A DNA stretch of 64,000 nucleotides from Roseovarius pacificus. Its GTDB lineage: Bacteria; Pseudomonadota; Alphaproteobacteria; Rhodobacterales; Rhodobacteraceae. Location: positions 62,001 to 126,000 of the forward strand of contig NZ_FRBR01000004.1 in the NCBI RefSeq assembly GCF_900142665.1. The letters are read 5' to 3'. The notes beneath the pieces were generated by a model. That model was not told the DNA's origin and ran no database searches. It saw only the letters and a program-made list of their open reading frames with translations. Below are positions 452 through 23,251 of this stretch, in pieces. Within the stretch, counting starts at the first letter, position 1. Every line of letters starts with the position of its first letter. A program made the translations under genes and the position numbers.

Positions 452-1840
452 TCAGCTGTGGATCGGGCCGTCGCCACAGGCGAGCGCGGCTTCGCGCACG
501 GCCTCGGAATAGGTGGGGTGGGCGTGGCAGGTGAGGGCGATGTCCTCGGCGGCGGCGCCGAATTCCATCGCGACGCAGATTTCGTGGATCAGCTCGCCTG
601 CCGCCGGGCCGATGATATGCGCGCCGAGCACGCGGTCGGTCTCCTTGTCGGCCAGCAGCTTGACAAAGCCGTCGCCCGCGAAATTCGCCTTGGCGCGGCC
701 ATTGCCCATGAAGGAGAACTTGCCGACCTTGTAGGCGCGGCCCGCTTCCTTGAGCTGGCCTTCGGTCTTGCCCACGGCGGCGACCTCGGGATGGGTGTAG
801 ATCACGCTGGGGATGACATCGTAATTCACATGGCCGTGCTTGCCGGCGATCACCTCGGCGGCGGCCATGCCTTCGTCTTCGGCCTTGTGGGCCAGCATCG
901 GGCCGGCGACGGCATCGCCGATGGCGTAAATGCCCTCGACACTGGTGTGCCAGCCTTCGTCGATCACGATCTGTCCGCGATCCGAGAGTTTCACGCCGAG
1001 CGCGTCGAGACCGAGGCCATCGGTATAGGATTTGCGGCCCGTGGCGACGAGCACCACGTCGGCGTCGAGCGTGTGCTCGCTGTCGTCCTTGCGCAGCTTG
1101 TAGTTCACCTTGGCCTTGGTCTTGAGCGTTTCGACCGATTGCACGGCGGCGCCCATGATGAAGTCGAGCCCCTGTTTCCTGAGCAGCCGCTGGAATTGCT
1201 TTTGCACCTCGCTGTCCATGCCGGGGGTGACGTGATCGAGGAATTCCACGACTGTGACCTCGGTGCCGAGGCGGGTATAGACCGAACCCAGTTCCAGCCC
1301 GATCACGCCCGCGCCGATCACGACCATTTTCTTGGGGATCTTGGGCAGGTCCAGTGCGCCGGTGGAGGTGACGACGGTTTTCTCGTCCACCTCGACGCCG
1401 GGCAGGGAGGAGGCTTCGGAGCCGGTGGCGATGATGATGTTTTTGGCCTCGTGAACCTCGTCGCCGACCTTGACCTTGCCCTTCTCGGGGATCGAGCCCC
1501 AGCCCTTGAGCCAGTCGATCTTGTTCTTCTTGAACAGGAATTCGATGCCCTTGGTGTTCTGGCCGATCACGTCGTCCTTGTAGGACAGCATCTGTTTCCA
1601 GTCGACCGAAGGGCTTTTGCCCTTGAGGCCCATCTTGGCGAAGTTGTGCTCGGCCTCGTGCAACTGGTGAGAGGCATGGAGCAGCGCCTTGGAGGGGATG
1701 CAGCCGACGTTGAGGCAGGTGCCGCCCAGGGTTTCGCGGCCCTCCACACAGGCGGTTTTCAGGCCGAGCTGGGCGCAGCGGATGGCGGCGACATAGCCGC
1801 CGGGGCCGGAGCCGATGACGATGACGTCATAGTTTGCCAT
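452..1840 (-). CDS. lpd: Dihydrolipoyl dehydrogenase (E3)
   Basis: A 462-residue FAD flavoprotein that reoxidises dihydrolipoyl groups of the 2-oxoacid dehydrogenase complexes with NAD+. Visible features are the FAD-binding GSGPGG at residues 11-15, the redox disulfide Cys42/Cys47 in [13 protein letters not shown], a second dinucleotide fold near [10 protein letters not shown], and the C-terminal HPTYSE with catalytic His441/Glu446. Length is normal for the family. It is the last gene of the minus-strand operon that also carries sucC, sucD, sucA and sucB, so it probably serves the 2-oxoglutarate dehydrogenase complex, although E3 can be shared with pyruvate dehydrogenase. Confidence 0.97.
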
Positions 1841-2813: not shown

Positions 2814-4340
<1,527 letters not shown>

Positions 4341-4343
4341 GCG

Positions 4344-7304
4344 TTATTTCCCTTCGATGGTGAGCGCGGTATCCACCAGCGCCTCTTGTTGTGCTTTGTG
4401 TTGCGATGCGAGGCCCGTTGCGGGCGAGGCGGCCGCAGGACGACCGGCATAGGACGGGCGGGTGTGTTTGGCCTTGATGCGTTGCAGGACCCATTCGATG
4501 TTGGGTTCGATGAAGGCCCACGCGCCCTGGTTCTTGGGCTCTTCCTGACACCAGACCATTTCGGCCTTCTTGAAGCGTTCCAGTTCCTTGACCATCGACA
4601 TGGCCGGGAACGGGTAGAACTGTTCGACGCGCAGGATATAGACATCGTCCAGCCCGCGTGTGTCGCGTTCTTCCAGCAGGTCGTAATAGACCTTGCCCGA
4701 GCACATGACGACGCGCCTGATCTTGTCGTCGGGTTTCAGTTGCATGTCGGAGTTGCCGTATTGGGCATCGTCCCACAGCACCCGGTGGAAGCTGGAGCCG
4801 GTGGTGAAATCCTCGGCGGTGGAGATCGCCATCTTGTGACGCAGCAGCGATTTCGGCGTCATCATGATCAGCGGTTTGCGGTAGGTGCGGTGCAACTGGC
4901 GGCGCAGGATGTGGAAATAGTTGGCCGGGGTCGTGCAGTTGGCCACGATCCAGTTGTCGCCGCCGCACATCGTGAGGAACCGCTCCAGCCGTGCCGAGGA
5001 GTGTTCGGGGCCCTGGCCCTCATACCCGTGGGGCAGGAGGCAGACGAGGCCCGACATGCGCAGCCATTTGGATTCGCCTGAGCTGATGAACTGATCGAAC
5101 ATGATCTGCGCGCCGTTGGCGAAATCGCCGAACTGGGCCTCCCACAGGGTCAGCGCGTTGGGTTCGGCGAGGCTGTAGCCGTATTCGAACCCCAGCACGG
5201 CGTATTCGCTGAGCATCGAGTCGATGACCTCGTAGCGGGCCTGCCCTTCGCGGATGTTGTTCAGCGGGTAATAGCGTTCTTCGGTGTCCTGGTTGATCAG
5301 GGCCGAGTGGCGCTGGCTGAACGTGCCGCGGGCGCTGTCCTGACCGGCGAGGCGCACGGGATAGCCTTCGAGCTGGAGCGAGCCGAAGGCCAGGGCCTCG
5401 GCGGTGGCCCAGTCGAAGCCCTTGCCGCTGTCGAACATCTTGCGCTTGGTGTCCAGAAGGCGGCCGACGGTCTTGTGCATCGGGAAACCTTCGGGCGCGG
5501 TGGTGAGCGCGTGCCCGATCTCTTTCATGGTGTCCGGCGCGATGGCGGTTTCGCCGCGCTGGTAATCCTCGTCCTTGCTGTCGAGATGCGACCACTTGCC
5601 GTCCAGCCAGTCGGCCTTGTTGGGGCGGTATTCCTTGCCGGCCTCGAATTCGTCGGCCAGGTAGGACTGGAAGGCGGCCTTCATGTCCTCGATCTCGCCC
5701 TCGGGGATCAGACCGTCGGCGACAAGGCGTTCGGTATAGAGGCTGAGCGTGGTCTTGTGCTTCTTGATCTTGTTATACATCATCGGGTTCGTGAACATGG
5801 GCTCGTCGCCCTCGTTATGGCCGAACCGGCGGTAGCAGATGATGTCGATCACCACGTCCTTCTGGAATTTCTGGCGGAATTCCGTGGCGACCTTGGCGGC
5901 GTGAACGACCGCCTCGGGATCGTCGCCGTTAACGTGGAAGATCGGGGCCTCGACCATCAGCGCGATATCGGTCGGATAGGGCGAGGAGCGCGAGAAATGC
6001 GGCGCGGTGGTGAAACCGATCTGGTTGTTCACCACGATATGCATGGTGCCGCCGGTCTTGTGCCCCTTGAGGCCCGACAGGCCGAAACATTCGGCCACGA
6101 CGCCCTGACCGGCAAAGGCCGCATCGCCGTGCAGCAGCACGGGCAGGACGCTGGTGCGTTCGGTGTCGTGCATCTGGTCCTGCTTGGCGCGGACCTTGCC
6201 CAGAACCACGGGGTTCACCGCCTCGAGGTGCGAGGGGTTCGCGGTGAGGCTGAGATGGACCTTGTTGCCGTCGAATTCACGGTCGGAGGAGGCGCCGAGG
6301 TGGTATTTCACGTCGCCCGAGCCGTCCACGTCCTCGGGCTTGAAGCTGCCGCCCTGGAATTCGTTGAAGATGGCGCGATAGGGTTTGCCCATCACGTTGG
6401 CCAGCACCGACAGGCGGCCCCGGTGGGGCATGCCGATGACGATTTCCTTGACGCCGAGGCTGCCGCCGCGCTTGATGATCTGCTCCATCGCGGGGATCAG
6501 GCTTTCGCCGCCGTCGAGGCCGAAGCGCTTGGTGCCCATGTACTTGACGTGCAGGTATTTTTCGAACCCTTCGGCTTCGACCAGCTTGTTCAGGATGGCC
6601 TTGCGCCCCTCGCGGGTGAAGGTGATTTCCTTGTCGTAGCCTTCGATCCGCTCTTTCAGCCAGGCGGCCTGTTCGGGATCGGAAATGTGCATGTATTGCA
6701 GGGCGAAGGTGCCGCAATAGGTGCGCTTGACGATCTCCAGTATCTCGCGGATCGAGGCGACCTGAAGGCCCAGAACGTTGTCGATGAAGATCGGGCGGTC
6801 AAGGTCGGCTTCGGTGAAGCCGTAGGATTTGGGATCGAGTTCGGGGCGGTGGCCGTGATCGCGCAGGCCGAGCGGGTCGAGCTCGGCGATCAGGTGGCCG
6901 CGGATACGGTAGGCGCGGATCAGCATCAGCGCGCGCACCGAGTCCAGAACGGCGCGTTTCACGGCGTCATCGGAAACCTCGACGCCCTGTTCGGCGGCTT
7001 TCTGTTTGATCTTCTCGCCGGCTTTAGCCACTTCGATTTCGGCAGGCCATTCGCCGGTCAGGGCGCTGGTCAGCTCGTCGGCGGGCATCGGCGGCCAGTC
7101 GGCCCGCGCCCAGGAGGGGCCTTCGGCCTCGCGTTTCACATCCTGATCGCCGTCGCCCAACTGGGAAAAGAACGCCTGCCATGCCTCGTCGACCGCGTTC
7201 GGGTCGTTCGCATAGCGCGCGTAAAGCTGTTCGAGATATTCGGCATTGTGCCCCTGCATGAAGGAGGAGGCATGGAAGAGGTCGTTGGGGCTTTGATCCG
7301 TCAT
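4344..7304 (-). CDS. sucA: 2-oxoglutarate dehydrogenase E1 component
   Basis: The thiamine diphosphate-dependent E1 subunit, 986 residues, which decarboxylates 2-oxoglutarate and passes the succinyl group to E2 lipoate. The ATG giving MTDQSPNDLF is chosen because AAAGGA lies eight bases upstream; an upstream ATG in the same frame lacks this. Visible family features are IGMPHRGRLSVL, the GDAAFAGQGVV segment, the NNQIGFTT block and the C-terminal EEPKNQGAW motif. Length and order fit the standard sucA-sucB pair. A 24-bp palindrome lies between sucD and this gene. Confidence 0.97.
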   Translation of the reverse strand: MTDQSPNDLFHASSFMQGHNAEYLEQLYARYANDPNAVDEAWQAFFSQLGDGDQDVKREAEGPSWARADWPPMPADELTSALTGEWPAEIEVAKAGEKIKQKAAEQGVEVSDDAVKRAVLDSVRALMLIRAYRIRGHLIAELDPLGLRDHGHRPELDPKSYGFTEADLDRPIFIDNVLGLQVASIREILEIVKRTYCGTFALQYMHISDPEQAAWLKERIEGYDKEITFTREGRKAILNKLVEAEGFEKYLHVKYMGTKRFGLDGGESLIPAMEQIIKRGGSLGVKEIVIGMPHRGRLSVLANVMGKPYRAIFNEFQGGSFKPEDVDGSGDVKYHLGASSDREFDGNKVHLSLTANPSHLEAVNPVVLGKVRAKQDQMHDTERTSVLPVLLHGDAAFAGQGVVAECFGLSGLKGHKTGGTMHIVVNNQIGFTTAPHFSRSSPYPTDIALMVEAPIFHVNGDDPEAVVHAAKVATEFRQKFQKDVVIDIICYRRFGHNEGDEPMFTNPMMYNKIKKHKTTLSLYTERLVADGLIPEGEIEDMKAAFQSYLADEFEAGKEYRPNKADWLDGKWSHLDSKDEDYQRGETAIAPDTMKEIGHALTTAPEGFPMHKTVGRLLDTKRKMFDSGKGFDWATAEALAFGSLQLEGYPVRLAGQDSARGTFSQRHSALINQDTEERYYPLNNIREGQARYEVIDSMLSEYAVLGFEYGYSLAEPNALTLWEAQFGDFANGAQIMFDQFISSGESKWLRMSGLVCLLPHGYEGQGPEHSSARLERFLTMCGGDNWIVANCTTPANYFHILRRQLHRTYRKPLIMMTPKSLLRHKMAISTAEDFTTGSSFHRVLWDDAQYGNSDMQLKPDDKIRRVVMCSGKVYYDLLEERDTRGLDDVYILRVEQFYPFPAMSMVKELERFKKAEMVWCQEEPKNQGAWAFIEPNIEWVLQRIKAKHTRPSYAGRPAAASPATGLASQHKAQQEALVDTALTIEGK

Positions 7305-7398
7305 TGCGCGTCCTTTCTGACCGACCGTGAGAAGCTTCGGGAGAGACATCCGGTTTTCGGGTGCAGATGTCCGTCGCGAGGCTCCGTAAAGACGGGCA

Positions 7399-7431: not shown

Positions 7432-8316
7432 TTAACCCTTGATTGCGTCGAGCACGGCCTCGCCCAGGGTGGCGGGGCTGTCGGCGACGACGATACCGGC
7501 GGATTTCATCGCCTCGATCTTGTCCTCGGCGCCGCCCTTGCCACCGGCGACGATGGCGCCGGCATGACCCATGCGGCGGCCCGGAGGCGCTGTGCGGCCC
7601 GCGATGAAACCGGCAGTGGGCTTCCAGCGGCCTTTCTTGCGCTCGGAGGCGAGGAATTCGGCGGCTTCCTCTTCGGCGGAGCCGCCGATTTCACCGATCA
7701 TGATGATCGACTCGGTCTCGTCATCGGCCAGGAACCATTCCAGCACGTCGATATGTTCGGTGCCCTTGATCGGGTCGCCGCCGATGCCGACGCAGGTGGA
7801 CTGGCCAAGGCCCACATCGGTGGTTTGCTTGACCGCCTCGTAGGTGAGCGTGCCCGAGCGCGAAACGACGCCCACGGTGCCGCGCTTGTGGATGTGGCCG
7901 GGCATGATGCCGATCTTGCAGGCGTCGGGGGTGATGACACCGGGGCAGTTCGGGCCGATCAGCGTGGAGTTCGAGGTTTCCAGCGCGCGCTTGACGCGCA
8001 TCATGTCCAGAACCGGGATACCTTCGGTGATGCAGACGATCACCTCCATCTCGGCGTCGATCGCTTCGAGGATCGAGTCGGCGGCGAAGGGCGGCGGGAC
8101 GTAGATCACGCTGGCGTTCGCCTCGGTTGCGTGTTTGGCCTCGTGGACCGAGTTGAACACCGGCAGGTCAAGATGCGTCTGGCCGCCTTTGCCGGGGGTG
8201 ACCCCGCCGACCATTTTCGTGCCATAGGCGATGGCCTGTTCGGTGTGGAACGTGCCCTGCGAGCCGGTGAGGCCCTGACAGATCACTTTGGTGTTTTCGT
8301 CGATGAGGACTGCCAT
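7432..8316 (-). CDS. sucD: Succinyl-CoA synthetase alpha subunit
   Basis: The 294-residue alpha subunit of succinate-CoA ligase, which makes ATP or GTP from succinyl-CoA. The N-terminal CoA-binding Rossmann fold begins at [13 protein letters not shown], and the phosphorylated histidine is His251 in [10 protein letters not shown]. The AAGGA ribosome site overlaps the TAA stop of the preceding small gene, so expression is coupled. Unusually, sucC and sucD are not adjacent here but are separated by a 175-codon low-GC gene. Confidence 0.97.
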
Positions 8317-8857: not shown

Positions 8858-10051
8858 CTAGCCCTTAACCGCCTTCACGATCTTTTCGGCGCCGTCTTTC
8901 AGGTCGTCGGCGGCGATCACGTCCAGGCCGGAATTCGAGATGATTTCCTTGCCCTTCTCGACATTCGTGCCTTCGAGGCGCACCACCAGCGGCACCTTGA
9001 GCCCCACTTCTTTCACCGCGGCAATCACGCCTTCGGCGATGACGTCGCAGCGCATGATGCCGCCGAAGATGTTGACCAGGATGCCTTTGACGTTGTCGTC
9101 CGAGGTGATGATCTTGAACGCTTCGGTGACCTTTTCCTTGGTCGCGCCGCCGCCCACGTCGAGGAAGTTGGCGGGTTCCGCACCGTAAAGCTTGATGATG
9201 TCCATCGTGGCCATCGCGAGGCCCGCGCCGTTCACCATGCAGCCGATCTCGCCGTCGAGCGCGATATAGTTCAGGTCGTATTTCGACGCTTCCAGTTCCT
9301 TGGGGTCTTCCTCGGTCGTGTCGCGCAGCTCGGCGATGTCGGCGTGGCGGTAGACCGCGTTGGAATCAAAGCCCATCTTGGCGTCGAGGCATTTCAGATC
9401 GCCCTTGTCGCTCAGGATCAGCGGGTTGATTTCCAGCATCTCCATGTCCTTGTCGAGGAACAGCTTGTAGAGAATGCCCATCAGCTTGACGCATTGTTTG
9501 ACCTGCGCGCCTTCGAGACCCAGCATGAAGGCGATGCGGCGGCCGTGGAAGGGCTGATAGCCGGTGGCCGGATCGACCGAGAAGCTGAGGATTTTCTCGG
9601 GGGTGCTTTCGGCGACTTCCTCGATATCCATGCCGCCTTCGGTCGAGGCGACGAAAGAGACGCGCGATGTCTGACGATCCACGAGCAGGGCCAGATAGAA
9701 TTCCTTGTCGATATCTGAGCCGTCTTCGATGTAGATGCGGTTGACCTGCTTGCCGGCGGGGCCGGTCTGTTTGGTCACGAGGGTCGAGCCCAGCATCCGC
9801 TTGGCTTCTTCGGCGGCTTCCTCGACCGACTTGGCGAGGCGAACGCCGCCGGCGTCTCCGGCGCGGGGCTCTTTGAAGCTGCCCTTGCCGCGACCGCCTG
9901 CGTGAATTTGCGCTTTGACCACCCAGAGAGGGCCGTCCATTTCGCCCGCGGCGGTCTTGGCTTCTTCGGCGCGCAGCACGACACGGCCATCCGAGACCGG
10001 GGCGCCGTAGGAGCGAAGCAGAGCCTTCGCCTGATACTCATGGATATTCAT
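8858..10051 (-). CDS. sucC: Succinyl-CoA synthetase beta subunit
   Basis: The 397-residue ADP-forming beta subunit. It starts with the family-standard [16 protein letters not shown], has an ATP-grasp fold in the N-terminal two thirds ([14 protein letters not shown] at the nucleotide site) and the CoA-ligase domain with [15 protein letters not shown] near residues 320-335. It is the first gene of the suc operon; the promoter and the paired GTGATCAC operator lie in the 260-bp gap before it. It works with SucD in the TCA cycle. Confidence 0.97.
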
Positions 10052-10156: not shown

Positions 10157-10190
10157 TTTGTGATCACGGCAATAAATCGTGTGATCACAA
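10157..10190. promoter_or_regulatory. Paired GTGATCAC operator upstream of sucC
   Basis: Two copies of the 8-bp palindrome GTGATCAC (10160-10167 and 10181-10188) have centres 21 bp apart, two helical turns. The outer flanks TTT and AAA make the whole unit an inverted repeat. It lies about 110-140 bases before the sucC ATG. The same unit occurs before sdhC at 19368-19401. This argues for a dimeric or tetrameric regulator of the TCA operons; a GntR-family protein is one possibility, but no regulator gene is in view. Confidence 0.7.
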
Positions 10191-10263
10191 AAGATAAACA
10201 TCATGAAAAATCTATACTTGAAAGAATCATGCGCCGGGGCCGGGTGCGGGGCGGCGAATGAAA

Positions 10264-10289
10264 AACGGCGCCGCAAAAGCGGCGCCGTT
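10264..10289 (-). terminator. Rho-independent terminator of mdh
   Basis: An 11-bp stem (AACGGCGCCGC and its complement) with an AAAA loop lies about 25 bases after the mdh stop. Read on the minus strand it is followed by TTTTTC. It separates mdh transcription from the suc operon, which therefore needs its own promoter. Confidence 0.85.
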
Positions 10290-10313
10290 CGACTGAATTC
10301 ATGAGCGGGCCGA

Positions 10314-12193
<1,880 letters not shown>

Positions 12194-12301
12194 TCGGAAT
12201 GGCATTTTCTGCGCTGCGGCGACAAAGTGCTTGAACTTTTCAGGCAAAAAATGGCATTTCGGCGCAAGTTTATTTCTGCATGACTCGGGAGGCGCTGCCA
12301 G

Positions 12302-13165
12302 ATGGACACCGCGACACGGCCTTATCGTTCGGTTCTTTATATTCCCGGTTCCAAGGACCGGGCGCTGGAGAAAGCGCGTTCGCTGCCTTGCGATGCCATT
12401 ATCTTTGATCTCGAGGATGCCGTTGCCCCCGAAGCCAAGCCGCAAGCGCGCGAAACGCTGGCCAACGCCCTGAAGGAAGGCGGGTATGGCAAGCGCTCCA
12501 GGATCGTGCGGATCAACGCGCTGACCACCGAATGGGGGCTGGAAGACGTGCGCGCGCTGCGCGATGCGGGGGCGGATGCGATCCTGCTGCCCAAGGTCAA
12601 CACGCCCTCGGACGTGGACAACCTGGCCGATATGCTGGGGCCGGACATGCCGATCTGGGTGATGATGGAAACGCCCGTCTGCGTGTTCAATGCGCGCGAG
12701 ATTGCTGCGCATGCGCAGGTGACGGGGCTGGTGGCCGGGACCAACGACCTGACCAAGGATCTGGGCTGCCGCACGCGGGCGGACCGCCTGCCGCTGATGA
12801 CCTCGTTGCAGATGATCGTCATGGCCGCCCGCGCGGCGCGTGGCGTTGTGGCGATCGACGGGGTTTACAACCGGTTCCGCGACGGTGACGGGCTGAAGGC
12901 GGAATGCGAACAGGGCCGCGATCTGGGCTTTGACGGCAAGACGCTGATCCATCCCGCGCAGGTCGAAGTGACCAACACCGCCTTTGCGCCGACGCAATCC
13001 GAGATCGACCTGGCCGGGCGCCAGATTGCCGCCTTCGAGGAAAGCAAGGCCTCGGGGCAGGGGGTGGCCGTGGTGGACGGGCAGATCGTCGAAAACCTGC
13101 ATGTGGTTGCGGCGCAGCGGATTCTGGCCAAAGCTGCGGCCATTGCAGAAATGGCAGCGGAGTAA
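12302..13165 (+). CDS. mcl2: HpcH/HpaI-CitE family, probable (3S)-malyl-CoA thioesterase
   Basis: A 287-residue CitE-like protein with the TIM-barrel motifs SVLYIPGSKDRALEKA, FDLEDAVAPE (metal and acyl-CoA binding), RINALTTEWG, LLPKVNTPSD and the GFDGKTLIHP block. Rhodobacter sphaeroides has two paralogues: a malyl-CoA lyase of about 318 residues and a malyl-CoA thioesterase (Mcl2) of about 285. Length and position next to mch and sdh match the second. Its role would be hydrolysis of malyl-CoA to malate at the end of the ethylmalonyl-CoA pathway. A GGGAGG ribosome site precedes the ATG. A citrate-lyase-beta-like or malyl-CoA lyase activity cannot be excluded. Confidence 0.85.
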   Translation: MDTATRPYRSVLYIPGSKDRALEKARSLPCDAIIFDLEDAVAPEAKPQARETLANALKEGGYGKRSRIVRINALTTEWGLEDVRALRDAGADAILLPKVNTPSDVDNLADMLGPDMPIWVMMETPVCVFNAREIAAHAQVTGLVAGTNDLTKDLGCRTRADRLPLMTSLQMIVMAARAARGVVAIDGVYNRFRDGDGLKAECEQGRDLGFDGKTLIHPAQVEVTNTAFAPTQSEIDLAGRQIAAFEESKASGQGVAVVDGQIVENLHVVAAQRILAKAAAIAEMAAE

Positions 13166-13171
13166 AGCGGT

Positions 13172-13717
13172 ATGACATATCTTATTCTGGGTCTGGTCCT
13201 TTGGACGGCAGGCCACGTATTCAAACGGATCGCCCCGGACATGCGCGCGGGGATGGGCCATGCCGGAAGGGGGCTGGCGGCGCTGATCATCCTGGCCGGT
13301 GTGGTGCTGATGGTGATCGGCTATCGTGCGGCGGACGGTGCCGTTCTTTGGGGGCGTCACCCGGCCACGGTGGGCATCAACAACCTGCTGATGCTGCTGT
13401 CAGTCTACATGTTCGCGGCGGCGGGGATGAAAACCGCCCTGGCGCGCAAGATGCGGCATCCGATGCTGGGCGGCGTCAAGGTGTGGGCGCTGGCGCACCT
13501 TCTGGTCAATGGCGATGTGCCGTCTTTCGTGCTGTTCGGCGGGCTGCTGGCCTGGGCCGTGGTCGAGATGATCGTGATCAACCGCGCGCACCCCGACTGG
13601 ACCCCGCCCGCCCCTGCGCCCCGGCGCAAGGAGGTGATCGCGGTTGTCGCCTCGGTCGTGTTGTACGGGGTGATTGCCGCATTGCACTACCATTTCGGCT
13701 ATCCTGTGTTCGGGTGA
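13172..13717 (+). CDS. NnrU family membrane protein
   Basis: A 181-residue membrane protein with five to six predicted helices and the NnrU pattern LWTAGHVFKRIAP, AHLLVNGDVPSFVLFGG and HYHFGYPVFG. NnrU was first linked to nitric oxide reduction in Rhodobacter, but the family is widespread and its biochemical role is unclear; some members are related to the carotenoid isomerase helper Z-ISO. It starts six bases after the mcl2 stop, so it is in the same transcript as mcl2 and mch. Confidence 0.85.
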   Translation: MTYLILGLVLWTAGHVFKRIAPDMRAGMGHAGRGLAALIILAGVVLMVIGYRAADGAVLWGRHPATVGINNLLMLLSVYMFAAAGMKTALARKMRHPMLGGVKVWALAHLLVNGDVPSFVLFGGLLAWAVVEMIVINRAHPDWTPPAPAPRRKEVIAVVASVVLYGVIAALHYHFGYPVFG

Positions 13718-13723
13718 TCAGAG

Positions 13724-13927
13724 ATGCAGCTTTATCGATTCCTGTCGGCCGACGACACGTCGGAATTCTGCCACAAGGTCACGGCGGCCCTGAACAAGGG
13801 GTGGGCGCTGCATGGCGGCCCGACCTATGCCTTTGACCATGCCAATGGCGTGATGCGCTGCGGTCAGGCCGTGGTGAAAGAGGTGGACGGCACCTATACC
13901 CCCGATCTCAAGCTGGGAGAGCAATGA
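13724..13927 (+). CDS. DUF1737 domain protein
   Basis: A 67-residue soluble protein covering one DUF1737 domain: MQLYRFLSADDTSEFC at the start, the GWALHGGPTYAFD core and MRCGQAVVKE near the end. No function is established for the domain. It overlaps the start of mch by four bases (ATGA), so the two are translationally coupled, which fits an accessory role or simple hitch-hiking in the operon. Confidence 0.82.
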   Translation: MQLYRFLSADDTSEFCHKVTAALNKGWALHGGPTYAFDHANGVMRCGQAVVKEVDGTYTPDLKLGEQ

Positions 13928-14961
13928 TCATGGCCAAGACGAATCCGGGCCGGTTTTTCGAAGATTATTCGGTTGGCGATGTCATTCGGCACGCGGTGCC
14001 GCGCACCGTGTCGGGCGGCGAGCGTGCTCTCTATCATGCGCTCTACCCGGCGCGGCATGCGCTGTATTCGTCGGACGAGTTCGCACGCGGTTGCGGCCTT
14101 CCGTCCAGCCCGCTGGACGATCTGGCGGCGTTTCATGTGGTGTTCGGCAAGACCGTGCCGGATGTGTCGCTGAACGCGCTGGCCAATCTGGGCTATGCCG
14201 AGGGCCGCTGGCTGACGCCGGTCTATCCGGGCGACACGCTGCGCTCGACCAGCGAGGTGATCGGGCTCAAGCAGAATTCCAACGGGAAATCCGGCGTCGT
14301 CTGGGTGCGCACCAAAGGCGAAAACCAGCGCGGCGAAACCGTGATGGAGTACGTGCGTTGGGTCATGGTGCGCAAGCGCGATCCCGAGGCTGCGGCCCCC
14401 GAAACCCGCATGCCCGATCTCAAGCCCGCGCTGGATGCGGGCGATCTGGTGATCCCCGAGGGGCTGGATTTCACCGATTACGATTTCACCCTGGCCGGAG
14501 AGCCGCATCGCTGGGGCGATTACGAGGTGGGCGAGGTGATCGACCATGTCGATGGCGTGACCGTCGAAGAGGCCGAACACATGATGGCCACGCGCCTGTG
14601 GCAGAACACGGCCAAGGTGCATTTCGACGCCACCCTGCGCGAGGACGGCAACCGCCTGATCTATGGCGGGCATGTCATTTCCATGGCCCGCACGCTGAGC
14701 TTCAACGGGCTGGCGAATGCGCAGATGATCGTCGGGCTGAATGCGGGGGCCCATGCCAACCCGTGCTACAGCGGCGATACGATCAAGGCGTGGTCCGCGG
14801 TTCTGGACAAGGCGGAAACTCCGGCGCCGGGTGTGGGGGCGCTGCGCCTGCGGCTGGTGGCCACCAAGGGCGGTGAGCCGTTCACGCTCAGGGGTGAGGA
14901 CGGGAAATACCTGCCGCATGTTCTGCTGGATCTGGATTATTGGGCGCTGATTCCGCTTTGA
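13924..14961 (+). CDS. mch: Mesaconyl-CoA hydratase (tandem MaoC hot-dog protein)
   Basis: A 345-residue protein with two MaoC-like hot-dog domains, roughly residues 10-160 and 190-335. The N-terminus (NPGRFFEDYSVGDVI, SGGERALYHALYPARHAL) is typical of mesaconyl-CoA hydratase, which interconverts mesaconyl-CoA and beta-methylmalyl-CoA in the ethylmalonyl-CoA pathway. Linkage to mcl2 and sdh supports this. The first ATG overlaps the DUF1737 stop; a second ATG two codons later is also possible with the same GGGAGAG site. The pathway lets the cell assimilate acetyl-CoA without isocitrate lyase. Confidence 0.92.
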   Translation: MIMAKTNPGRFFEDYSVGDVIRHAVPRTVSGGERALYHALYPARHALYSSDEFARGCGLPSSPLDDLAAFHVVFGKTVPDVSLNALANLGYAEGRWLTPVYPGDTLRSTSEVIGLKQNSNGKSGVVWVRTKGENQRGETVMEYVRWVMVRKRDPEAAAPETRMPDLKPALDAGDLVIPEGLDFTDYDFTLAGEPHRWGDYEVGEVIDHVDGVTVEEAEHMMATRLWQNTAKVHFDATLREDGNRLIYGGHVISMARTLSFNGLANAQMIVGLNAGAHANPCYSGDTIKAWSAVLDKAETPAPGVGALRLRLVATKGGEPFTLRGEDGKYLPHVLLDLDYWALIPL

Positions 14962-15075
14962 CCGCGAATATCCGGGCGTGGTTGACTGTCAGGGGCGATC
15001 CTGTCACTACACATATTGTTTTCAGAATGTGAGTGACTAGGTTCGCGCCACTGTCGTCGCTGTCGGAGCATCAGA

Positions 15076-16059
15076 ATGTCCAATATCCGGTCCGCCCTGC
15101 GGGCACTCGTCATGGCCCTGTTCGTGGCCGGGCCCGCCTTTGCCGCTGAAATCACGGTAGAGCCTGTCACGGTGACGGATTGGAAGGCCGTCTATGGCCG
15201 TATCGAGACGCGGGATCGCGTTCCGGCGCGGGCGCGGTTGGGCGGGACGCTGACCATACTGACCGTGGCGGAAGGCGACCGCGTGGACAGCGGTGCGCAA
15301 CTGGCCCGCGTGGTGGATGAAAAGCTGGATTTCCAGCTTCGCGCGGTCGATGCCCGTTTGCAGGCGGCTGAATCGCGGCTGGAAAATGCCCGGACGGAAC
15401 TGACACGCGGTGAGGAGCTGTTGCAGCGGGGCGTGACCACGGCGCAGCGGCTGGATGCCCTGCGCACGGAGGTCAGCGTGATCACCAACGAGATCGCCGC
15501 CGCCCGCGCCGAGCGTCATGTCATCGAACAGCAGGTCGCCGAGGGCGATGTCTTTGCCCCCCTCGGTGGTGTCGTGCTGGATGTGCCGGTGACCGAAGGC
15601 GCTGTCGTGACGCCGGGGCAGACCATCGCCACGATGGGCGGTGGCGGTGTGTTCCTGCGCCTGGCCGTGCCCGAGCGCCATGCCGGTGCGATGGAGGAAG
15701 GCGACGACATTCAGATCGAAGGGCCGGACGGGGCGCGCACCGGGACGCTGGCCAAGGTGTATCCGTTGATCGAAAACGGCCGCGTCATCGCCGATGTCGA
15801 GGTCGGGGGGCTGAGCGAACGCTATGTCGATGCCCGCGTTCTGGTGCGCCTGCCGGTGGGCGAGCATCAGGCCATCCTGATTCCGCGCGATGCGGTGATC
15901 ACGCGCTCGGGGCTGGATTTCGTGCGCGTGACCGAAGGCGGCGAGGCCATCCTGCGCAGCGTCGTCGTCGGCCCGGCCCATGATCGCGACGGAACGGCGA
16001 TGGTTCACATCCTGACGGGATTGCAGCCCGGCGATGTGGTGGTGAGCGGCGATGAGTGA
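15076..16059 (+). CDS. RND efflux periplasmic adaptor (membrane fusion protein)
   Basis: A 327-residue HlyD/AcrA-type adaptor. It has a signal peptide to about residue 23 (cleavage after PAFA), a lipoyl-like beta hairpin split around a coiled coil (about residues 90-155), and a beta-barrel domain. It is shorter than typical AcrA proteins and lacks a lipobox, so it is probably soluble or held by the complex. Its stop overlaps the start of the RND permease gene by eight bases. The substrate is unknown. Confidence 0.9.
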   Translation: MSNIRSALRALVMALFVAGPAFAAEITVEPVTVTDWKAVYGRIETRDRVPARARLGGTLTILTVAEGDRVDSGAQLARVVDEKLDFQLRAVDARLQAAESRLENARTELTRGEELLQRGVTTAQRLDALRTEVSVITNEIAAARAERHVIEQQVAEGDVFAPLGGVVLDVPVTEGAVVTPGQTIATMGGGGVFLRLAVPERHAGAMEEGDDIQIEGPDGARTGTLAKVYPLIENGRVIADVEVGGLSERYVDARVLVRLPVGEHQAILIPRDAVITRSGLDFVRVTEGGEAILRSVVVGPAHDRDGTAMVHILTGLQPGDVVVSGDE

Positions 16060-19000
16060 TCAGGAGAACAGCGATCGCGCCCTCGGACTGGCGGGGCAGC
16101 TGACGCGGGGCTTCATCACCTCGCCCCTGACGCCGCTGATCATTCTGGCGGCGCTGGCCGTGGGGCTGATCGCACTGATCAGCCTGCCGCGCGAGGAAGA
16201 GCCGCAGATTTCCGTTCCACTGGTGGATATCCATATCCAGGCTTCGGGCCTGACCGCCGAGGATGCGGTGCAACTGGTGAGCGAGCCGATGGAAAGCATC
16301 GTGCAGGCCATCGACGACGTGGAGCATGTCTATTCGCAGACTTACGACGATGCCGCGATGGTAACCGCCCGGTTCAAGGTGGGCACCCCGGCGGATGCGG
16401 CGATCCTGCGGGTGCATGAAAAGGTGCGCGCCAATCTGGATCGTATCCCGGTGGGCATTCCCGAACCGCTGATCGTGGGGCGGGGCATCAACGATGTGGC
16501 CATCGTGACGCTGACCTTGTCGGGCAAGCCGGGGCACGAGGTGTCGTCCTACGATCTGACGCGGATCGCCCGGACCTTGCGGAGCGAGCTGACCAAGATC
16601 GGGGATGTCGGCCTGACCTATCTGACCGGAGAGGCGCAGGAAGCGATCCGCGTGGCCCCGGACCCCGAGAAGCTGGCGCTCTATGGCGTGACGCTGCAAC
16701 AACTGGCGGGCAAGGTGCAAAGCGCGAACCGGGCCTTCAGCACCGGCAAGCTGCGCGATGGCGGGCAGCAGATCGACCTGATCGCAGGCGAAACCCTGAC
16801 CGATCCCGCCGAGATCGCCAGCCTGCTGGTGACAACGCGCGACGGGCGGCCCGTATATGTGGGTGACGTGGCCCAGATCGAATTCGTGCCCGACATGTCG
16901 GAACAATACGCGGCCAATATCACCCGCACCGAAGGCGGCGAGTTGCATCGCGCGCCCGCGGTCACGCTGGCGCTGGCCAAGCGCGCCGGGGCCAATGCGG
17001 TGATCGTGGCCGAGGAAATCCTGCATAAGGTTCACATGCTGGAGGGCGATCTGATCCCCGAAAGCGTGGCCCTGTCGGTGACGCGCGATTACGGCGAAAC
17101 GGCCAATGAAAAGGCCAATGAACTGCTGTTCCATCTCGGGCTGGCCACGGTGTCGATCATCGCGCTGGTCTGGCTGTCGATTGGCTGGCGTGAAAGCATC
17201 GTGGTGGCGGTCGTCATTCCGATGACCATCCTTCTGACGCTGTTTGCGGCGTGGATCATGGGCTATACGCTGAACCGCGTGTCGCTGTTCGCGTTGATCT
17301 TTTCCATCGGCATCCTGGTGGATGACGCGATTGTGGTGATCGAGAACATCTCGCGACACTGGCAACTGGATCGGGGCAAAAGCCGGATCAGGGCGGCGAT
17401 CGACGCCGTGGCCGAAGTGGGCAATCCCACCATCGTGGCCACGCTGACCGTGGTGGCGGCCCTGTTGCCGATGCTGTTCGTGTCGGGCCTGATGGGCCCC
17501 TACATGAGCCCGATCCCGGCCAATGCCTCGGCGGCGATGATCTTTTCGTTTTTCGTGGCGGTGATGGTGACGCCGTGGCTGATGATCAAGGTGGCGGGCA
17601 AGGGCCCGCTCCACCACGAAGAGGGCGAGGGCGCCTTGGGCCGTATTTACCGCAAGGTGGCCACGCCCATTCTGGCCACCAAGGGGCGCAGCGGGTTGTT
17701 CCTGTTGCTGACGGTGGTGATCTCGTTCGGCTCGCTCGGGTTGCTTTATACCAAGGACGTGACGGTGAAGCTGTTGCCCTTCGACAACAAGTCGGAATTG
17801 TCGGTGATGGTCGATCTGCCCGAGGGGGCTTCGGTCGAGGCGACGGATGCGGTGGTGCAACAGGTGGCGCGCACGGTGATGGACCTGCCCGAGGTCGTGG
17901 CCGCGCAGACCCATTCCGGCACGGCGGCCCCGTTCAATTTCAACGGGCTGGTGCGGCACTATTACTTGCGGGCGATGCCCGAGCAGGGCGATGTGCAGGT
18001 GAACCTGTTGCCCAAGGGCGAGCGGGAACGCACCAGTCACGAGATTGCGCTGGATCTGCGCGAGCGGGTGGCGGCGTTGGACCTGCCGGAGGGCACGGTC
18101 GTGAAAACCGTCGAACCGCCGCCCGGCCCGCCGGTGCTGGCGACCCTTCTGGCCGAGGTGTATGGCCCCGATGCCGAAACCCGGCGCGAAGTGGCGCGCA
18201 AACTGCGCGCAGCCTTCGAGGATGTGCCCTATGTGGTGGATGTGGATGACAGTTTCGGCGTGCAGCCCCGGCGGTTGCGGGCGACGATTTCCACCGACGA
18301 TCTGGAGTTCTTCGGCGTGCAGGAGGCCGATGTCTTCGACACGCTGGCGATTCTCAACGGTCAGACGACGGTGGGATATTCGCATCGCGGCGAAGGGCGT
18401 GACCCGATCCCGATCACCGTGGCGCGCGCCAAGGGCGACCGGGTGATGGATCAGCGGATGCTGTCCACCCCGATCCCGGCCAACGTGTTGCCGGGGGCGC
18501 GGGGTGTGGTCGAACTGGGCGATGTGGTGCAACTGCGCGAGGAGCAGGCCTCGTTCCCGGTATTCCGGCGCAACGGGCGCGAGATTGAGATGGTCACGGC
18601 CGAACTGGCCGGAGATTTCGAGGCCCCGCTTTACGGCATGCTGGCCGTGGCCGAACGGATCGACGACATGGACTGGCCCGAGGGGCAGAAACCGCAGATC
18701 GCGCTGAACGGGCAGCCTTCCGATGAAAGCGGTGTGACCCTGTTGTGGGATGGCGAGTGGGAGGTCACCTGGGTGACGTTCCGCGACATGGGCGCGGCGT
18801 TCGGTGTGGCATTGCTGGGGATTTATATTCTGGTGGTGGCGCAGTTCGGATCGTTCCGCGTGCCGCTGGTGATCCTGACGCCGGTGCCGCTGACCTTTAT
18901 CGGGATCATGCTGGGCCACTGGCTGTGGGGCGCGCCGTTTTCGGCCCCGTCGATGATCGGATTCATCGCGCTTGCCGGGATCATCGTGCGCAATTCGATC

Positions 19001-19249
19001 CTGCTGGTGGATTTCATCCGCCACACCGACCCGGCGGGCAAAAGCGATCTGGACATTCTGATCGAAGCCGGTGCGATCCGGTTCCGCCCGATCCTGCTGA
19101 CCGCTCTGGCGGCGATGATCGGGGCGGCGGTGATCTTGGCCGATCCGATCTTTCAGGGGCTGGCATTGTCGCTGTTCTTCGGTCTGATTTCCTCGACCCT
19201 GCTGACGGTGCTGGTGATTCCGGCGATCTACCGGGTGTTCAAGACCTGA
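16052..19249 (+). CDS. RND efflux permease (AcrB/MexB superfamily)
   Basis: A 1065-residue inner-membrane transporter with the twelve-helix RND layout and two large periplasmic loops. The proton-relay aspartates are visible as Asp424 and Asp425 in GILVDDAIVVIEN, and FIALAGIIVRNSILLVDFI marks the matching part of the second half. It is coupled by overlap to the adaptor gene; no outer-membrane TolC-like gene is next to it, so it probably uses one encoded elsewhere. It follows the mch gene on the same strand after a 114-bp gap. The substrate cannot be predicted. Confidence 0.93.
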   Translation: MSDQENSDRALGLAGQLTRGFITSPLTPLIILAALAVGLIALISLPREEEPQISVPLVDIHIQASGLTAEDAVQLVSEPMESIVQAIDDVEHVYSQTYDDAAMVTARFKVGTPADAAILRVHEKVRANLDRIPVGIPEPLIVGRGINDVAIVTLTLSGKPGHEVSSYDLTRIARTLRSELTKIGDVGLTYLTGEAQEAIRVAPDPEKLALYGVTLQQLAGKVQSANRAFSTGKLRDGGQQIDLIAGETLTDPAEIASLLVTTRDGRPVYVGDVAQIEFVPDMSEQYAANITRTEGGELHRAPAVTLALAKRAGANAVIVAEEILHKVHMLEGDLIPESVALSVTRDYGETANEKANELLFHLGLATVSIIALVWLSIGWRESIVVAVVIPMTILLTLFAAWIMGYTLNRVSLFALIFSIGILVDDAIVVIENISRHWQLDRGKSRIRAAIDAVAEVGNPTIVATLTVVAALLPMLFVSGLMGPYMSPIPANASAAMIFSFFVAVMVTPWLMIKVAGKGPLHHEEGEGALGRIYRKVATPILATKGRSGLFLLLTVVISFGSLGLLYTKDVTVKLLPFDNKSELSVMVDLPEGASVEATDAVVQQVARTVMDLPEVVAAQTHSGTAAPFNFNGLVRHYYLRAMPEQGDVQVNLLPKGERERTSHEIALDLRERVAALDLPEGTVVKTVEPPPGPPVLATLLAEVYGPDAETRREVARKLRAAFEDVPYVVDVDDSFGVQPRRLRATISTDDLEFFGVQEADVFDTLAILNGQTTVGYSHRGEGRDPIPITVARAKGDRVMDQRMLSTPIPANVLPGARGVVELGDVVQLREEQASFPVFRRNGREIEMVTAELAGDFEAPLYGMLAVAERIDDMDWPEGQKPQIALNGQPSDESGVTLLWDGEWEVTWVTFRDMGAAFGVALLGIYILVVAQFGSFRVPLVILTPVPLTFIGIMLGHWLWGAPFSAPSMIGFIALAGIIVRNSILLVDFIRHTDPAGKSDLDILIEAGAIRFRPILLTALAAMIGAAVILADPIFQGLALSLFFGLISSTLLTVLVIPAIYRVFKT

Positions 19250-19256
19250 AGGCCGA

Positions 19257-19401
19257 TTTGTGATCACGAATTGCCGAGCGGGTTTCGCGTAGCGCATGGG
19301 AGTAAAAAGACTCAGCAGGCCGGGGGATTGTCGAAATGCGGGCGATTGAAACGGAAAATTGCCGATATTTGTGATCACGTAAATTCTGGCGTGATCACAA
19401 A
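19257..19401. promoter_or_regulatory. GTGATCAC operators in the sdhC upstream region
   Basis: The 291-bp gap between the efflux gene and sdhC contains three copies of GTGATCAC: one single (19260-19267) and a pair (19371-19378 and 19391-19398). The pair forms a perfect inverted repeat with 12-base arms, TTTGTGATCACG and its complement, around a 10-base spacer (19368-19401). The pair lies about 140 bases before the sdhC ATG. The match to the unit before sucC suggests common control of sdh and suc. I see nothing else clear in this gap. Confidence 0.72.
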
Positions 19402-19540
19402 TGCCCGTTCTGCGACGAATTGCTTGCAGATTCCGGCGATTGGGGCTGTGCAAACCCCGTTCAGGCGCTAAAAGAGGTTCCGTAAACGGGCGCGCCCGCG
19501 TCGAGGGCTGCGCACCAAGACGAAAACGAAGGGACCGACC

Positions 19541-19924
19541 ATGGCCGACGTGAACCAGGGCGAACGCCCCCTGTCACCGCATCTGCAAGTCTACCGCCCC
19601 CAGCTGACCTCGATCACCTCGATCCTGACACGGATCACCGGCAACGCGTTGATCGTTGCCGCGCTTCTGGTCGTCTGGTGGCTGCTGGCCGCCGCGACGG
19701 GGCCGGAGTATTTCGCTACGGCCAATGCCGTCGTTACATCGTGGTTCGGCGATCTGGTCTTTACCCTGTCGCTGTGGGCGGTTTGGTATCACTACCTGGC
19801 CGGTCTGCGGCATCTGTATTTCGATGCGGGGAAGGGGCTTGAGATCGAAGCCGCCGAAAAGCTGGGCATCGCCTGCATCGCCGGATCGGTCATCCTGACC
19901 GTCATCACGCTGATCATCATCTGA
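19541..19924 (+). CDS. sdhC: Succinate dehydrogenase cytochrome b556 subunit
   Basis: A 127-residue membrane anchor with three helices. Conserved residues are the N-terminal RPLSPHLQVYRP motif, which marks SdhC, and the H-x3-G-x-R-H pattern with His84 and His91 near the second helix that contributes to haem b and quinone binding. It opens the operon sdhC-sdhD-sdhA-lipoprotein-sdhB. The complex oxidises succinate and reduces ubiquinone in the inner membrane. Confidence 0.96.
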   Translation: MADVNQGERPLSPHLQVYRPQLTSITSILTRITGNALIVAALLVVWWLLAAATGPEYFATANAVVTSWFGDLVFTLSLWAVWYHYLAGLRHLYFDAGKGLEIEAAEKLGIACIAGSVILTVITLIII

Positions 19925-19937
19925 GGGGAGGCCAGCC

Positions 19938-20309
19938 ATGCGTTATCTGACCGCACGCAAGCGAGCCGAAGGACTGGGCGCCGCCCATACCGGCACCGAG
20001 CATCACTGGTACATGACCGTCAGCGCCGTGGGCCTGGCGCTGATCGTGCCGATTTTCCTGTTCGTCTTTGGCCACACCCTGGGCGGGACGCACGAAGAGG
20101 TCACGCAGGCCTTTTCGCATCCCGCCATGGCCATCCTGACCATGCTGGTCCTGTTCGTGGGCCTGCAGCATTTCCGCAAGGGCGCGCAGATCATGATCGA
20201 GGATTATTCGCGCGGGATCACCCGCAAGATCCTGATCATCTCGGCCACGGTGCTGAGCTACGGGATGATGGCCACGGGCCTGTTCGCCGTTCTCAAGATC
20301 GCCCTTTAA
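19938..20309 (+). CDS. sdhD: Succinate dehydrogenase hydrophobic membrane anchor
   Basis: A 123-residue protein with three hydrophobic helices and the family start MRYLTARKRAEGLG. The HFRKGAQIMIEDYSRG segment after helix two carries the conserved His and Asp-Tyr positions of SdhD. It lies 13 bases after sdhC with GGGAGG as ribosome site. With SdhC it forms the haem b and quinone-binding anchor of complex II. Confidence 0.94.
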   Translation: MRYLTARKRAEGLGAAHTGTEHHWYMTVSAVGLALIVPIFLFVFGHTLGGTHEEVTQAFSHPAMAILTMLVLFVGLQHFRKGAQIMIEDYSRGITRKILIISATVLSYGMMATGLFAVLKIAL

Positions 20310-20327: not shown

Positions 20328-22133
20328 ATGGCTGCTTACGAATACGAAACACATGATTATGACGTGGTTGTCGTGGGGGCGGGGGGCGCCGGGCTGCGCG
20401 CCACGCTCGGCATGGCCGAGCAGGGCCTGCGCACGGCCTGCGTGACCAAGGTCTTCCCGACGCGTTCGCATACCGTGGCGGCGCAGGGCGGCATCGCCGC
20501 GTCGCTGTCGAACATGGGGCCCGATCACTGGCAGTGGCACATGTACGACACCGTCAAGGGCAGTGACTGGCTGGGCGATACCGACGCCATGGAATATCTG
20601 GCGCGCGAGGCCCCCAAGGCCGTGTATGAACTGGAACATTACGGCGTTCCCTTCAGCCGCACCGAAGAGGGCAAGATCTATCAGCGCCCCTTTGGCGGCC
20701 ATACCACCGAATTCGGCGAAGGCCCCCCGGTGCAGCGGACCTGTGCCGCCGCCGACCGGACCGGCCACGCGATCCTGCACACGCTCTATGGCCAGAGCCT
20801 GAAGAACAACGCGGAATTCTACATCGAGTATTTCGCCATCGACCTGATCATGAGCGATGACGGCGCCTGTACCGGCGTTGTCTGCTGGAAGCTGGACGAT
20901 GGCACGATGCACGTGTTCAACGCCAAGATGGTCGTATTGGCCACCGGCGGCTATGGCCGGGCCTATTTCAGCGCGACCAGCGCCCATACCTGCACCGGCG
21001 ACGGGGGCGGTATGGTGGCCCGTGCGGGCCTGCCCCTGCAGGACATGGAATTCGTGCAGTTCCACCCGACCGGCATCTATGGCTCGGGCTGCCTGATCAC
21101 CGAAGGCGCACGCGGCGAGGGCGGTTACCTGACCAACAGCGAAGGCGAGCGGTTCATGGAGCGCTATGCGCCCAACTACAAGGACCTTGCGCCGCGCGAT
21201 TATGTCAGCCGCTCGATGACCATGGAAATCCGCGAGGGCCGGGGCGTGGGGGCGAATGGCGACCACATTCACCTGAACCTGTCGCACCTGCCGCCCGAGG
21301 CGCTGCAACTGCGCCTGCCCGGCATTTCGGAATCGGCCCGCATCTTTGCCGGTGTGGACGTGACCAAGGAACCGATCCCGGTGCTGCCGACGGTGCATTA
21401 CAACATGGGCGGTATCCCGACGAACTACTGGGGCGAGGTTCTGAACCCCACCAAGGACGATCCGCATGCCGTCGTGCCCGGCCTGATGGCCGTGGGCGAG
21501 GCCGGTTGCGCCAGCGTTCACGGGGCGAACCGCCTCGGGTCGAACTCGCTGATCGACCTTGTGGTGTTCGGCCGTGCCGCCGCCATTCGCGCAGGCAAGG
21601 TTGTCGACTCCGAAAGTGCGGTTCCGGCAACGAACACCGCGCAGGTCGACAAGGCGTTCGACCGCTTCGACACCCTGCGCAATGCCGATGGTGCGATTGC
21701 AACCGCCGACCTGCGTCTGGAAATGCAGAAGACCATGCAGGAAGACGCCGCCGTGTTCCGGACCTCGGAAACGCTGGCCGAAGGCGTCAGGAAGATGGAA
21801 GCCATCGCCGGCAAGATGGGCGACCTGAAGGTCAGCGACCGCAGCCTCGTGTGGAACTCGGACCTGATGGAAACGCTGGAACTGACCAACCTGATGCCCA
21901 ATGCGCTGGCCACCATCAACGGGGCCGAGGCGCGCAAGGAATCCCGCGGCGCCCACGCGCACGAGGATTTTTCCAAGCGCGATGACAAGAACTGGCGCGT
22001 TCACACCATCGCGCGGGTTGGCGACACGACCGTCGATCTGAGTTATCGCCCGATCATCGAAGACCCGCTGACCCCCGAATCCGAGGGCGGTATCAGCATC
22101 AAGACCATCGCCCCCAAGGAACGGACGTTCTGA
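20328..22133 (+). CDS. sdhA: Succinate dehydrogenase flavoprotein subunit
   Basis: A 601-residue flavoprotein. The dinucleotide-binding GAGGAG is at residues 17-22. The covalent-FAD histidine is His48 in [10 protein letters not shown]. The active-site segment [11 protein letters not shown] and the C-terminal [11 protein letters not shown] are intact. It oxidises succinate to fumarate on the cytoplasmic face. Its stop overlaps the start of the following small lipoprotein gene (TGATG), so the two are coupled. Confidence 0.97.
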
Positions 22134-22456
22134 TGATGCGGTTCCTGTCCGGTCTGGTCCTGGTTGCCGTGCTGTCGGGCTGTAACGTGGCGAACGACGC
22201 TGCGGACAGGCTGGCGCGCGATCAGGCGAAGGCCGTGGTGAACGGTGTCGTGGAACAGAGATTCCCCGGTGTGAATGCCGCGCCGGTGACGGACTGCATC
22301 ATCGATGCGGCCTCGGCGCGGGAAATCCTGACAATTGCCAGGGCGTCGGTCTCTGGCGTGACCCAATCGACGGTAGAGCAGGTGCTGGACATCGCGCAGC
22401 GCCCCGAAGCCGTGCAATGCATCGCCGGGAACAGCATGACGCTGTTTGGCGGCTGA
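22133..22456 (+). CDS. Small lipoprotein encoded between sdhA and sdhB
   Basis: A 107-residue protein with a signal peptide and lipobox LSGC (Cys17 if the first ATG is used; a second ATG follows directly). The mature part is short, with two cysteines (TDCIID and VQCIAG) that may pair in the periplasm. I do not recognise a named family. Its position inside the sdh operon, overlapping the sdhA stop and 15 bases before sdhB, suggests either an accessory role near complex II or neutral co-transcription. Confidence 0.72.
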   Translation: MMRFLSGLVLVAVLSGCNVANDAADRLARDQAKAVVNGVVEQRFPGVNAAPVTDCIIDAASAREILTIARASVSGVTQSTVEQVLDIAQRPEAVQCIAGNSMTLFGG

Positions 22457-22471
22457 GCGGAGGAGACGAAA

Positions 22472-23251
22472 ATGGTTCAACTCAGACTCCCCAAGAATTC
22501 CCGCATGACGGCAGGCAAGACATGGCCCAAGCCCGAAGGCGCGACCAATGTCCGCAAGTTCCAGATCTATCGCTGGAATCCGGATGACGGGGAAAACCCC
22601 CGCGTCGATACCTATTTCGTCGATATGGACGATTGCGGGCCGATGGTTCTGGATGCGCTGATCTACATCAAGAACAAGGTCGATCCGACCCTGACCTTCC
22701 GCCGGTCCTGCCGCGAGGGCATTTGCGGGTCCTGTGCGATGAACATCGACGGGATCAACACGCTGGCCTGTATCTACGGCATGGACGAAATCAAGGGCGA
22801 TGTGAAAATCTATCCGCTGCCCCATATGCCGGTGGTCAAGGACCTGATCCCCGACCTGACGCATTTCTATGCGCAGCACGCGTCGATCATGCCCTGGCTG
22901 GAAACCAAGACGAACCGCCCGGCCAAGGAATGGAAACAGTCGATCGAAGACCGCGCCAAGCTGGACGGTCTGTATGAATGCGTGATGTGCGCCAGTTGCT
23001 CGACCGCCTGCCCCAGCTACTGGTGGAACGGCGACAAGTATCTTGGCCCGGCTGCGTTGTTGCATGCTTATCGCTGGATCATCGACAGCCGCGATGAGGC
23101 CACGGGCGAGCGTCTGGACGATCTGGAAGACCCGTTCAAGCTGTACCGCTGTCATACGATCATGAACTGCACCAAGACCTGCCCCAAGGGTCTGAACCCG
23201 GCCAAGGCCATCGCAGAGATCAAGAAGATGATGCTGGATCGGGCGGTCTGA
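22472..23251 (+). CDS. sdhB: Succinate dehydrogenase iron-sulfur subunit
   Basis: A 259-residue protein with the three cluster motifs of complex II: the plant-type [2Fe-2S] site in [14 protein letters not shown] with a later Cys, the [4Fe-4S] site [12 protein letters not shown], and the [3Fe-4S] site in [15 protein letters not shown] strong GGAGGAG ribosome site precedes the ATG. It is the last gene of the operon, followed by a rho-independent terminator. Confidence 0.97.

Follow-up and report, generated by a model that had tools for sequence, protein, structure and literature searches.

Paired GTGATCAC sites before the sucC and sdhC genes of Roseovarius pacificus as probable operators of AkgR

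In this study, we analyzed a 64,000-nt stretch of the Roseovarius pacificus genome (the window) and conclude, with a probability of roughly 0.9 based on sequence comparison, that the paired GTGATCAC sites before sucC and sdhC are operators of AkgR, and that AkgR is encoded elsewhere in the genome as the protein P0001. The AkgR regulon is already known from R. sphaeroides, and the Roseovarius pacificus genome is a further member. The two are alike in the GntR regulator, the GTGATCAC sites, and the predicted targets, namely succinyl-CoA synthetase (SCS), succinate dehydrogenase (SDH), and 2-oxoglutarate dehydrogenase (OGDH) (PMC6365646, PMC4344238). Because AkgR control of these operons was known, the result itself brings little surprise. 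Its value is that a formerly unnamed operator can now be described as a named circuit, open to testing, that covers three consecutive complexes of the TCA cycle in the Rhodobacteraceae, a large family of ecological importance.

The octamer GTGATCAC is found seven times in the window. Dinucleotide shuffles contained it 0.98 times on average, and none of 100 shuffles reached seven. Five of the copies form the following sites:

10157..10191, minus strand: paired AkgR-type operator (predicted) before sucC; cores 10160-10167 (proximal) and 10181-10188 (distal), centres 21 bp apart
19367..19402, plus strand: paired AkgR-type operator (predicted) before sdhC; cores 19371-19378 (distal) and 19391-19398 (proximal), centres 20 bp apart
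19256..19271, plus strand: extra single site before sdhC; core at 19260, 111 bp upstream of the distal core of the sdhC pair

The remaining two copies, at 15478 and 15895, are bare cores without TTT/AAA arms and lie inside an ORF (15076-16059). The exact positions confirm an earlier note on this DNA, which had described both pairs with spacings of 21 and 20 bp, TTT/AAA-flanked inverted repeats at each, a single additional copy before sdhC, and comparable distances of about 110-145 bases to the start codons. At both pairs, the inverted repeat TTTGTGATCAC / GTGATCACAAA is free of mismatches, with 11-nt arms separated by 13 nt at sucC and 13-nt arms separated by 10 nt at sdhC. The distance from core to ATG is 108 bases for sucC (ATG at 10051, minus strand) and 142 bases for sdhC (ATG at 19541). 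An extra core like that at 19260 is absent from the other 13 sdh upstream regions compared.

Perfect inverted repeats with a loop of 10-13 nt, lying 108-142 bases from the start codons, might also be read as RNA hairpins in the transcript leader instead of DNA operators. However, an inverted repeat is the automatic outcome of two arms that are each palindromic. Lone copies are present before akgR and at 19260, triple rows of the core occur in two other genomes (G135 and G191), and the loop sequences differ between genomes. We regard a hairpin as highly improbable and treat the pairs as probable AkgR operators.

The names of the suc, lpd, mdh, and sdh genes were checked by family models, with the following assignments:

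8858..10051, minus strand: sucC, succinyl-CoA synthetase beta (NF001913)
7432..8316, minus strand: sucD, succinyl-CoA synthetase alpha (NF004230)
4344..7349, minus strand: sucA, 2-oxoglutarate dehydrogenase E1 (NF006914)
2814..4340, minus strand: sucB, 2-oxoglutarate dehydrogenase E2 (NF004309)
452..1840, minus strand: lpd, dihydrolipoyl dehydrogenase (TIGR01350); a presumed operon member, from the shared strand only
10314..11276, minus strand: mdh, neighbour on the upstream side of the suc operon; no operator copy (family model and motif count)
19541..19924, plus strand: sdhC (TIGR02970)
19938..20309, plus strand: sdhD (TIGR02968)
20328..22133, plus strand: sdhA (PF00890, PF02910)
22472..23251, plus strand: sdhB (PF13085 and 4Fe-4S domains)

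The earlier note was right that mdh has no operator copy, and a simple scan shows neither the promoter nor the terminator that it had also assigned to this gene. An 11-nt perfect inverted repeat is located behind mdh at 10264-10289. The promoter scan detected no consensus sigma-70 promoter at suc or sdh, a result counted against the AkgR reading; therefore, we claim no class I or class II placement for the sites. Genes for an HpcH/HpaI-type lyase (12302-13165) and a mesaconyl-CoA hydratase-like protein (13924-14961) lie between mdh and sdh. A 107-codon ORF between sdhA and sdhB (22133-22456) has no Pfam match, and its counterpart in the genome G051, described below, is 39% identical.

The sites could alternatively be bound by a global regulator, such as CceR or a protein of the CRP/FNR type. 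The CRP/FNR-type operator consensus is TGTGA-N6-TCACA or TTGAT-N4-ATCAA, and neither form has a match in the window. CceR (RSP_1663) and NtrC are both predicted at sdh in R. sphaeroides, but the CceR motif, [AGT]GTT-N6-8-AAC[ACT] (PMC4344238), has no match in the suc, sdh, and mdh upstream regions. The CceR, CRP, and FNR readings were rejected for want of a pattern match, and we give a global regulator at these sites very little credence. The same predictions qualify the proposal in the earlier note of one dedicated regulator for the three complexes: a single regulator, AkgR, is supported by our results, whereas "dedicated" claims too much.

Scattered copies across the genome, which the earlier note had set against its own proposal, do occur for the bare octamer. 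With 161 occurrences in the genome of 4.55 Mb, it is uninformative by itself and was dropped as evidence. The extended site TTTGTGATCAC is found at only six places (reversed control, none), five of them in the window. The sixth is on another contig (C21:177440-177450), with its core starting 17 bases before the ATG of the P0001 gene. Outside suc, sdh, and P0001, the whole genome has no exact TTTGTGATCAC; thus, acnA, icd, and gltA lack the exact form. The suggestion of further copies before a regulator gene is therefore borne out by P0001, and that of copies before other TCA cycle genes is not, as far as the exact form is concerned. A whole-genome scan allowing one mismatch returned 48 matches, six exact and 42 with one mismatch; 24 of the 42 were scored by similarity only, a score that does not separate them, as functional sites themselves reach 11-13 of 14.

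P0001 (C21:177457-178101) has 215 residues with GntR DNA-binding and FCD domains, and is one of 27 proteins with an FCD match in the genome. Its top match among solved structures is McbR/YncC of E. coli (PDB 4p9f, E 2e-19), which indicates distant kinship only; McbR/YncC is another regulator and acts on different targets. P0001 and P0002 of G051 share 77% identity. The match between the PuhA protein of G051 and the sequence of PDB 1e14_H extends over 260 of 260 residues, and we take the source organism of 1e14 to be Rhodobacter sphaeroides; G051 is accordingly taken as this species from its sequence. AkgR is reportedly RSP_0981, a designation said to come from Imam and others in 2015. P0002 is located just behind sdhB, across a gap with one small same-strand ORF and, in the mechanical list, further overlapping ORFs. 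Since sdhB is RSP_0979 (PMC8920488), this place suggests that P0002 fits RSP_0981, and its position at 2.740 Mb in G051 agrees with that of RSP_0773 at 2.515 Mb of chromosome 1 (PMC4344238). The top named match of P0002 is from Cereibacter ovatus (94%), and C. sphaeroides is absent from its best 80 matches.

In R. sphaeroides, the set of targets predicted for RSP_0981 comprises SCS, SDH, and OGDH (PMC4344238), and GTGATCAC is named among the sites of AkgR, which is called an activator (PMC6365646). The Roseovarius pacificus genome has the corresponding elements: a GntR and FCD protein closely related to P0002, the GTGATCAC motif, and sites preceding the operons for SCS/OGDH and for SDH. While the earlier note held that the regulator could not be named from the sequence, the site before P0001, together with the published motif and targets, now points to AkgR. 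G051 also has two matching operator pairs, with 13 bp between the cores. The two genomes differ in that akgR of Roseovarius pacificus lies off the sdh contig and has its own single site, whereas akgR of G051 has none, and in that the sdhC pair of Roseovarius pacificus has a spacing of 20 bp, against 21 bp in G051, and is joined by a third copy. The location of akgR on another contig than suc and sdh was counted against the AkgR reading.

The pair, sought as GTGATCAC-N6-20-GTGATCAC, is present in 222 of 248 Rhodobacteraceae genomes (reversed control, one genome), with a layout that most of the family shares. About 160 of the 222, counted by eye, have exactly two pairs. The number of bases between the cores, listed for 75 pairs from 38 genomes, is 13 in 65, 12 in six, and 10 or 19 in four. 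Among 385 Alphaproteobacteria, a 12-13 bp pair occurs in all five members of the same family and in two of the 380 other genomes; one of these two outsider pairs precedes another GntR/FCD gene and the other precedes no recognised gene. In a sample of 58 distinct operators from within the family, taken from the fetched loci and spaced by 12-13 bp, with duplicates and triple arrays counted once, the operators are located before sucC (29), sdhC (25), sucA (1), fumC (1), and none of the tested genes (2). Conservation of the pair before suc and sdh in relatives, which the earlier note had made a test of its proposal, is evident. Among the matches listed, 23 of the 26 genomes without an exact pair have some match with up to two mismatches at the 13-bp spacing. 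Most of these look like chance occurrences, and only the two in G040, each with one mismatch and separated by 7.5 kb on a single contig, resemble the suc and sdh sites.

A genome that has the pair mostly has AkgR too, and one that lacks the pair mostly lacks AkgR. Both were found in 218 of the 248 genomes, neither in 21, the pair only in four, and the AkgR orthologue only in five (Fisher p 5e-22, uncorrected for relatedness). AkgR was scored as absent when the best E value was weaker than 1e-58, a cut-off set after seeing the table. The search with P0001 gave a strong group at 1.6e-79 or better and a weak group at 2.9e-46 or worse, with G122 (1.9e-60) and G033 (1.4e-57) in between. Moving G122 across the cut-off changes the table to 218/4/4/22 (both, pair only, AkgR only, neither). 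The exceptions were counted against the AkgR reading: G019, G033, G096, and G114 have the pair without a recognisable orthologue, G033 having a more distant relative of P0001 (48% identical), and G040, G122, G147, G155, and G166 have the orthologue without an exact pair. Those at least 90% complete are G019, G114, G040, and G155.

The four genomes with the pair and no close relative of P0001, together with the 27 FCD matches in the Roseovarius pacificus genome, leave some room for a different GntR/FCD member that is not the AkgR orthologue and binds a motif common to a wider subfamily. Two distant cases fit this explanation. In Pseudomonas simiae, GTGATCAC is located at -47 to -40 before the GntR-like regulator gene PS417_07240, whose product is 32% identical to AkgR; this regulator differs in that it controls a cluster for deoxyribonate oxidation rather than TCA cycle genes, and a single copy is described (PMC6365646). 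In G393, from outside the family, a 13-bp pair precedes a GntR/FCD gene whose product is 32% identical to P0001 (L181:992-1020). However, apart from the suc and sdh copies, the only extended site precedes P0001 itself, and the P0001 orthologue and the pair come and go together. We consider another GntR/FCD binder improbable and retain AkgR. The G393 gene with the pair adjoins a dehydrogenase-like ORF.

The single site at akgR has a more restricted distribution. The core lies within 40 bases before the start in 28 of the 30 best-scoring orthologue loci, including that of Roseovarius pacificus, and in 25 of these 28, again including Roseovarius pacificus, it follows TTGAC by exactly 18 bases. 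If TTGAC is read as the -35 element, the core would be placed between -35 and -10, overlapping -10, a position suited to repression. Among the loci nearest the G051 protein, of which 79 of 80 were usable (one was dropped for short upstream sequence), the core is present in only 16, located 18 (12 loci) or 20 (four loci) bases after TTGAC. The region upstream of akgR in G051 itself has TTGAC and no GTGATCAC core. The scarcity among these loci and the absence in G051 were both counted against the AkgR reading. Both samples consist of the nearest relatives of one protein and are not random draws. Given 28 of 30 loci against 16 of 79, and none in G051, the akgR site is clade-dependent and occurs in one part of the family only.

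We propose a regulatory scheme based on these geometries. One AkgR dimer is proposed per GTGATCAC palindrome. Because of the 20-21 bp period, the two dimers at sucC and at sdhC would sit two helical turns apart on the same face of the DNA, upstream of the promoter. Such paired dimers probably cooperate, and they probably act as joint activators of 2-oxoglutarate dehydrogenase, succinyl-CoA synthetase, and succinate dehydrogenase. The single site on the core promoter of akgR may allow AkgR to repress its own gene. AkgR would then use two geometries with opposite outcomes, a pair of dimers activating suc and sdh and a lone dimer at the core promoter repressing akgR, with the double site kept across the Rhodobacteraceae and the self-repression loop missing around Cereibacter; we regard the arguments for and against this combined proposal as evenly balanced. 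If it is true, the feedback loop may have been invisible when AkgR was described in the Cereibacter lineage. Direct predictions on cooperative binding and feedback follow from the constant 20-21 bp spacing and from the akgR site, which depends on the clade. Among the literature matches listed for AkgR, RSP_0981, TGTGATCAC, and GTGATCAC with GntR, whose coverage excludes the primary AkgR paper, we found no description of the paired spacing or the akgR site; as far as these matches go, the family-wide paired geometry and the patchy akgR site are apparently undescribed.

Several individual genomes have variants of the layout. A third pair is located 149 bp before fumC in G042 (L097:1501-1529), and fumarase catalyzes the TCA cycle step after succinate dehydrogenase. 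In G177 (L100:1501-1529), the pair follows mdh and directly precedes sucA, which takes the place occupied by sucC in other genomes. Three consecutive GTGATCAC cores with a 21-bp period lie before sucC in G135 and G191 (L235:1819-1868 and L236:11610-11659). A 12-bp pair in G230 (L226/L234) is placed in a gap between two ORFs outside the tested TCA cycle genes. A CGTGAC block, which is absent from the window and present in one of 16 suc regions, occurs up to 72 nt behind the sdh pair in nine of 14 sdh upstream regions (reversed control, none), namely L079, L080, L088, L090, L091, L098, L104, L105, and G051.
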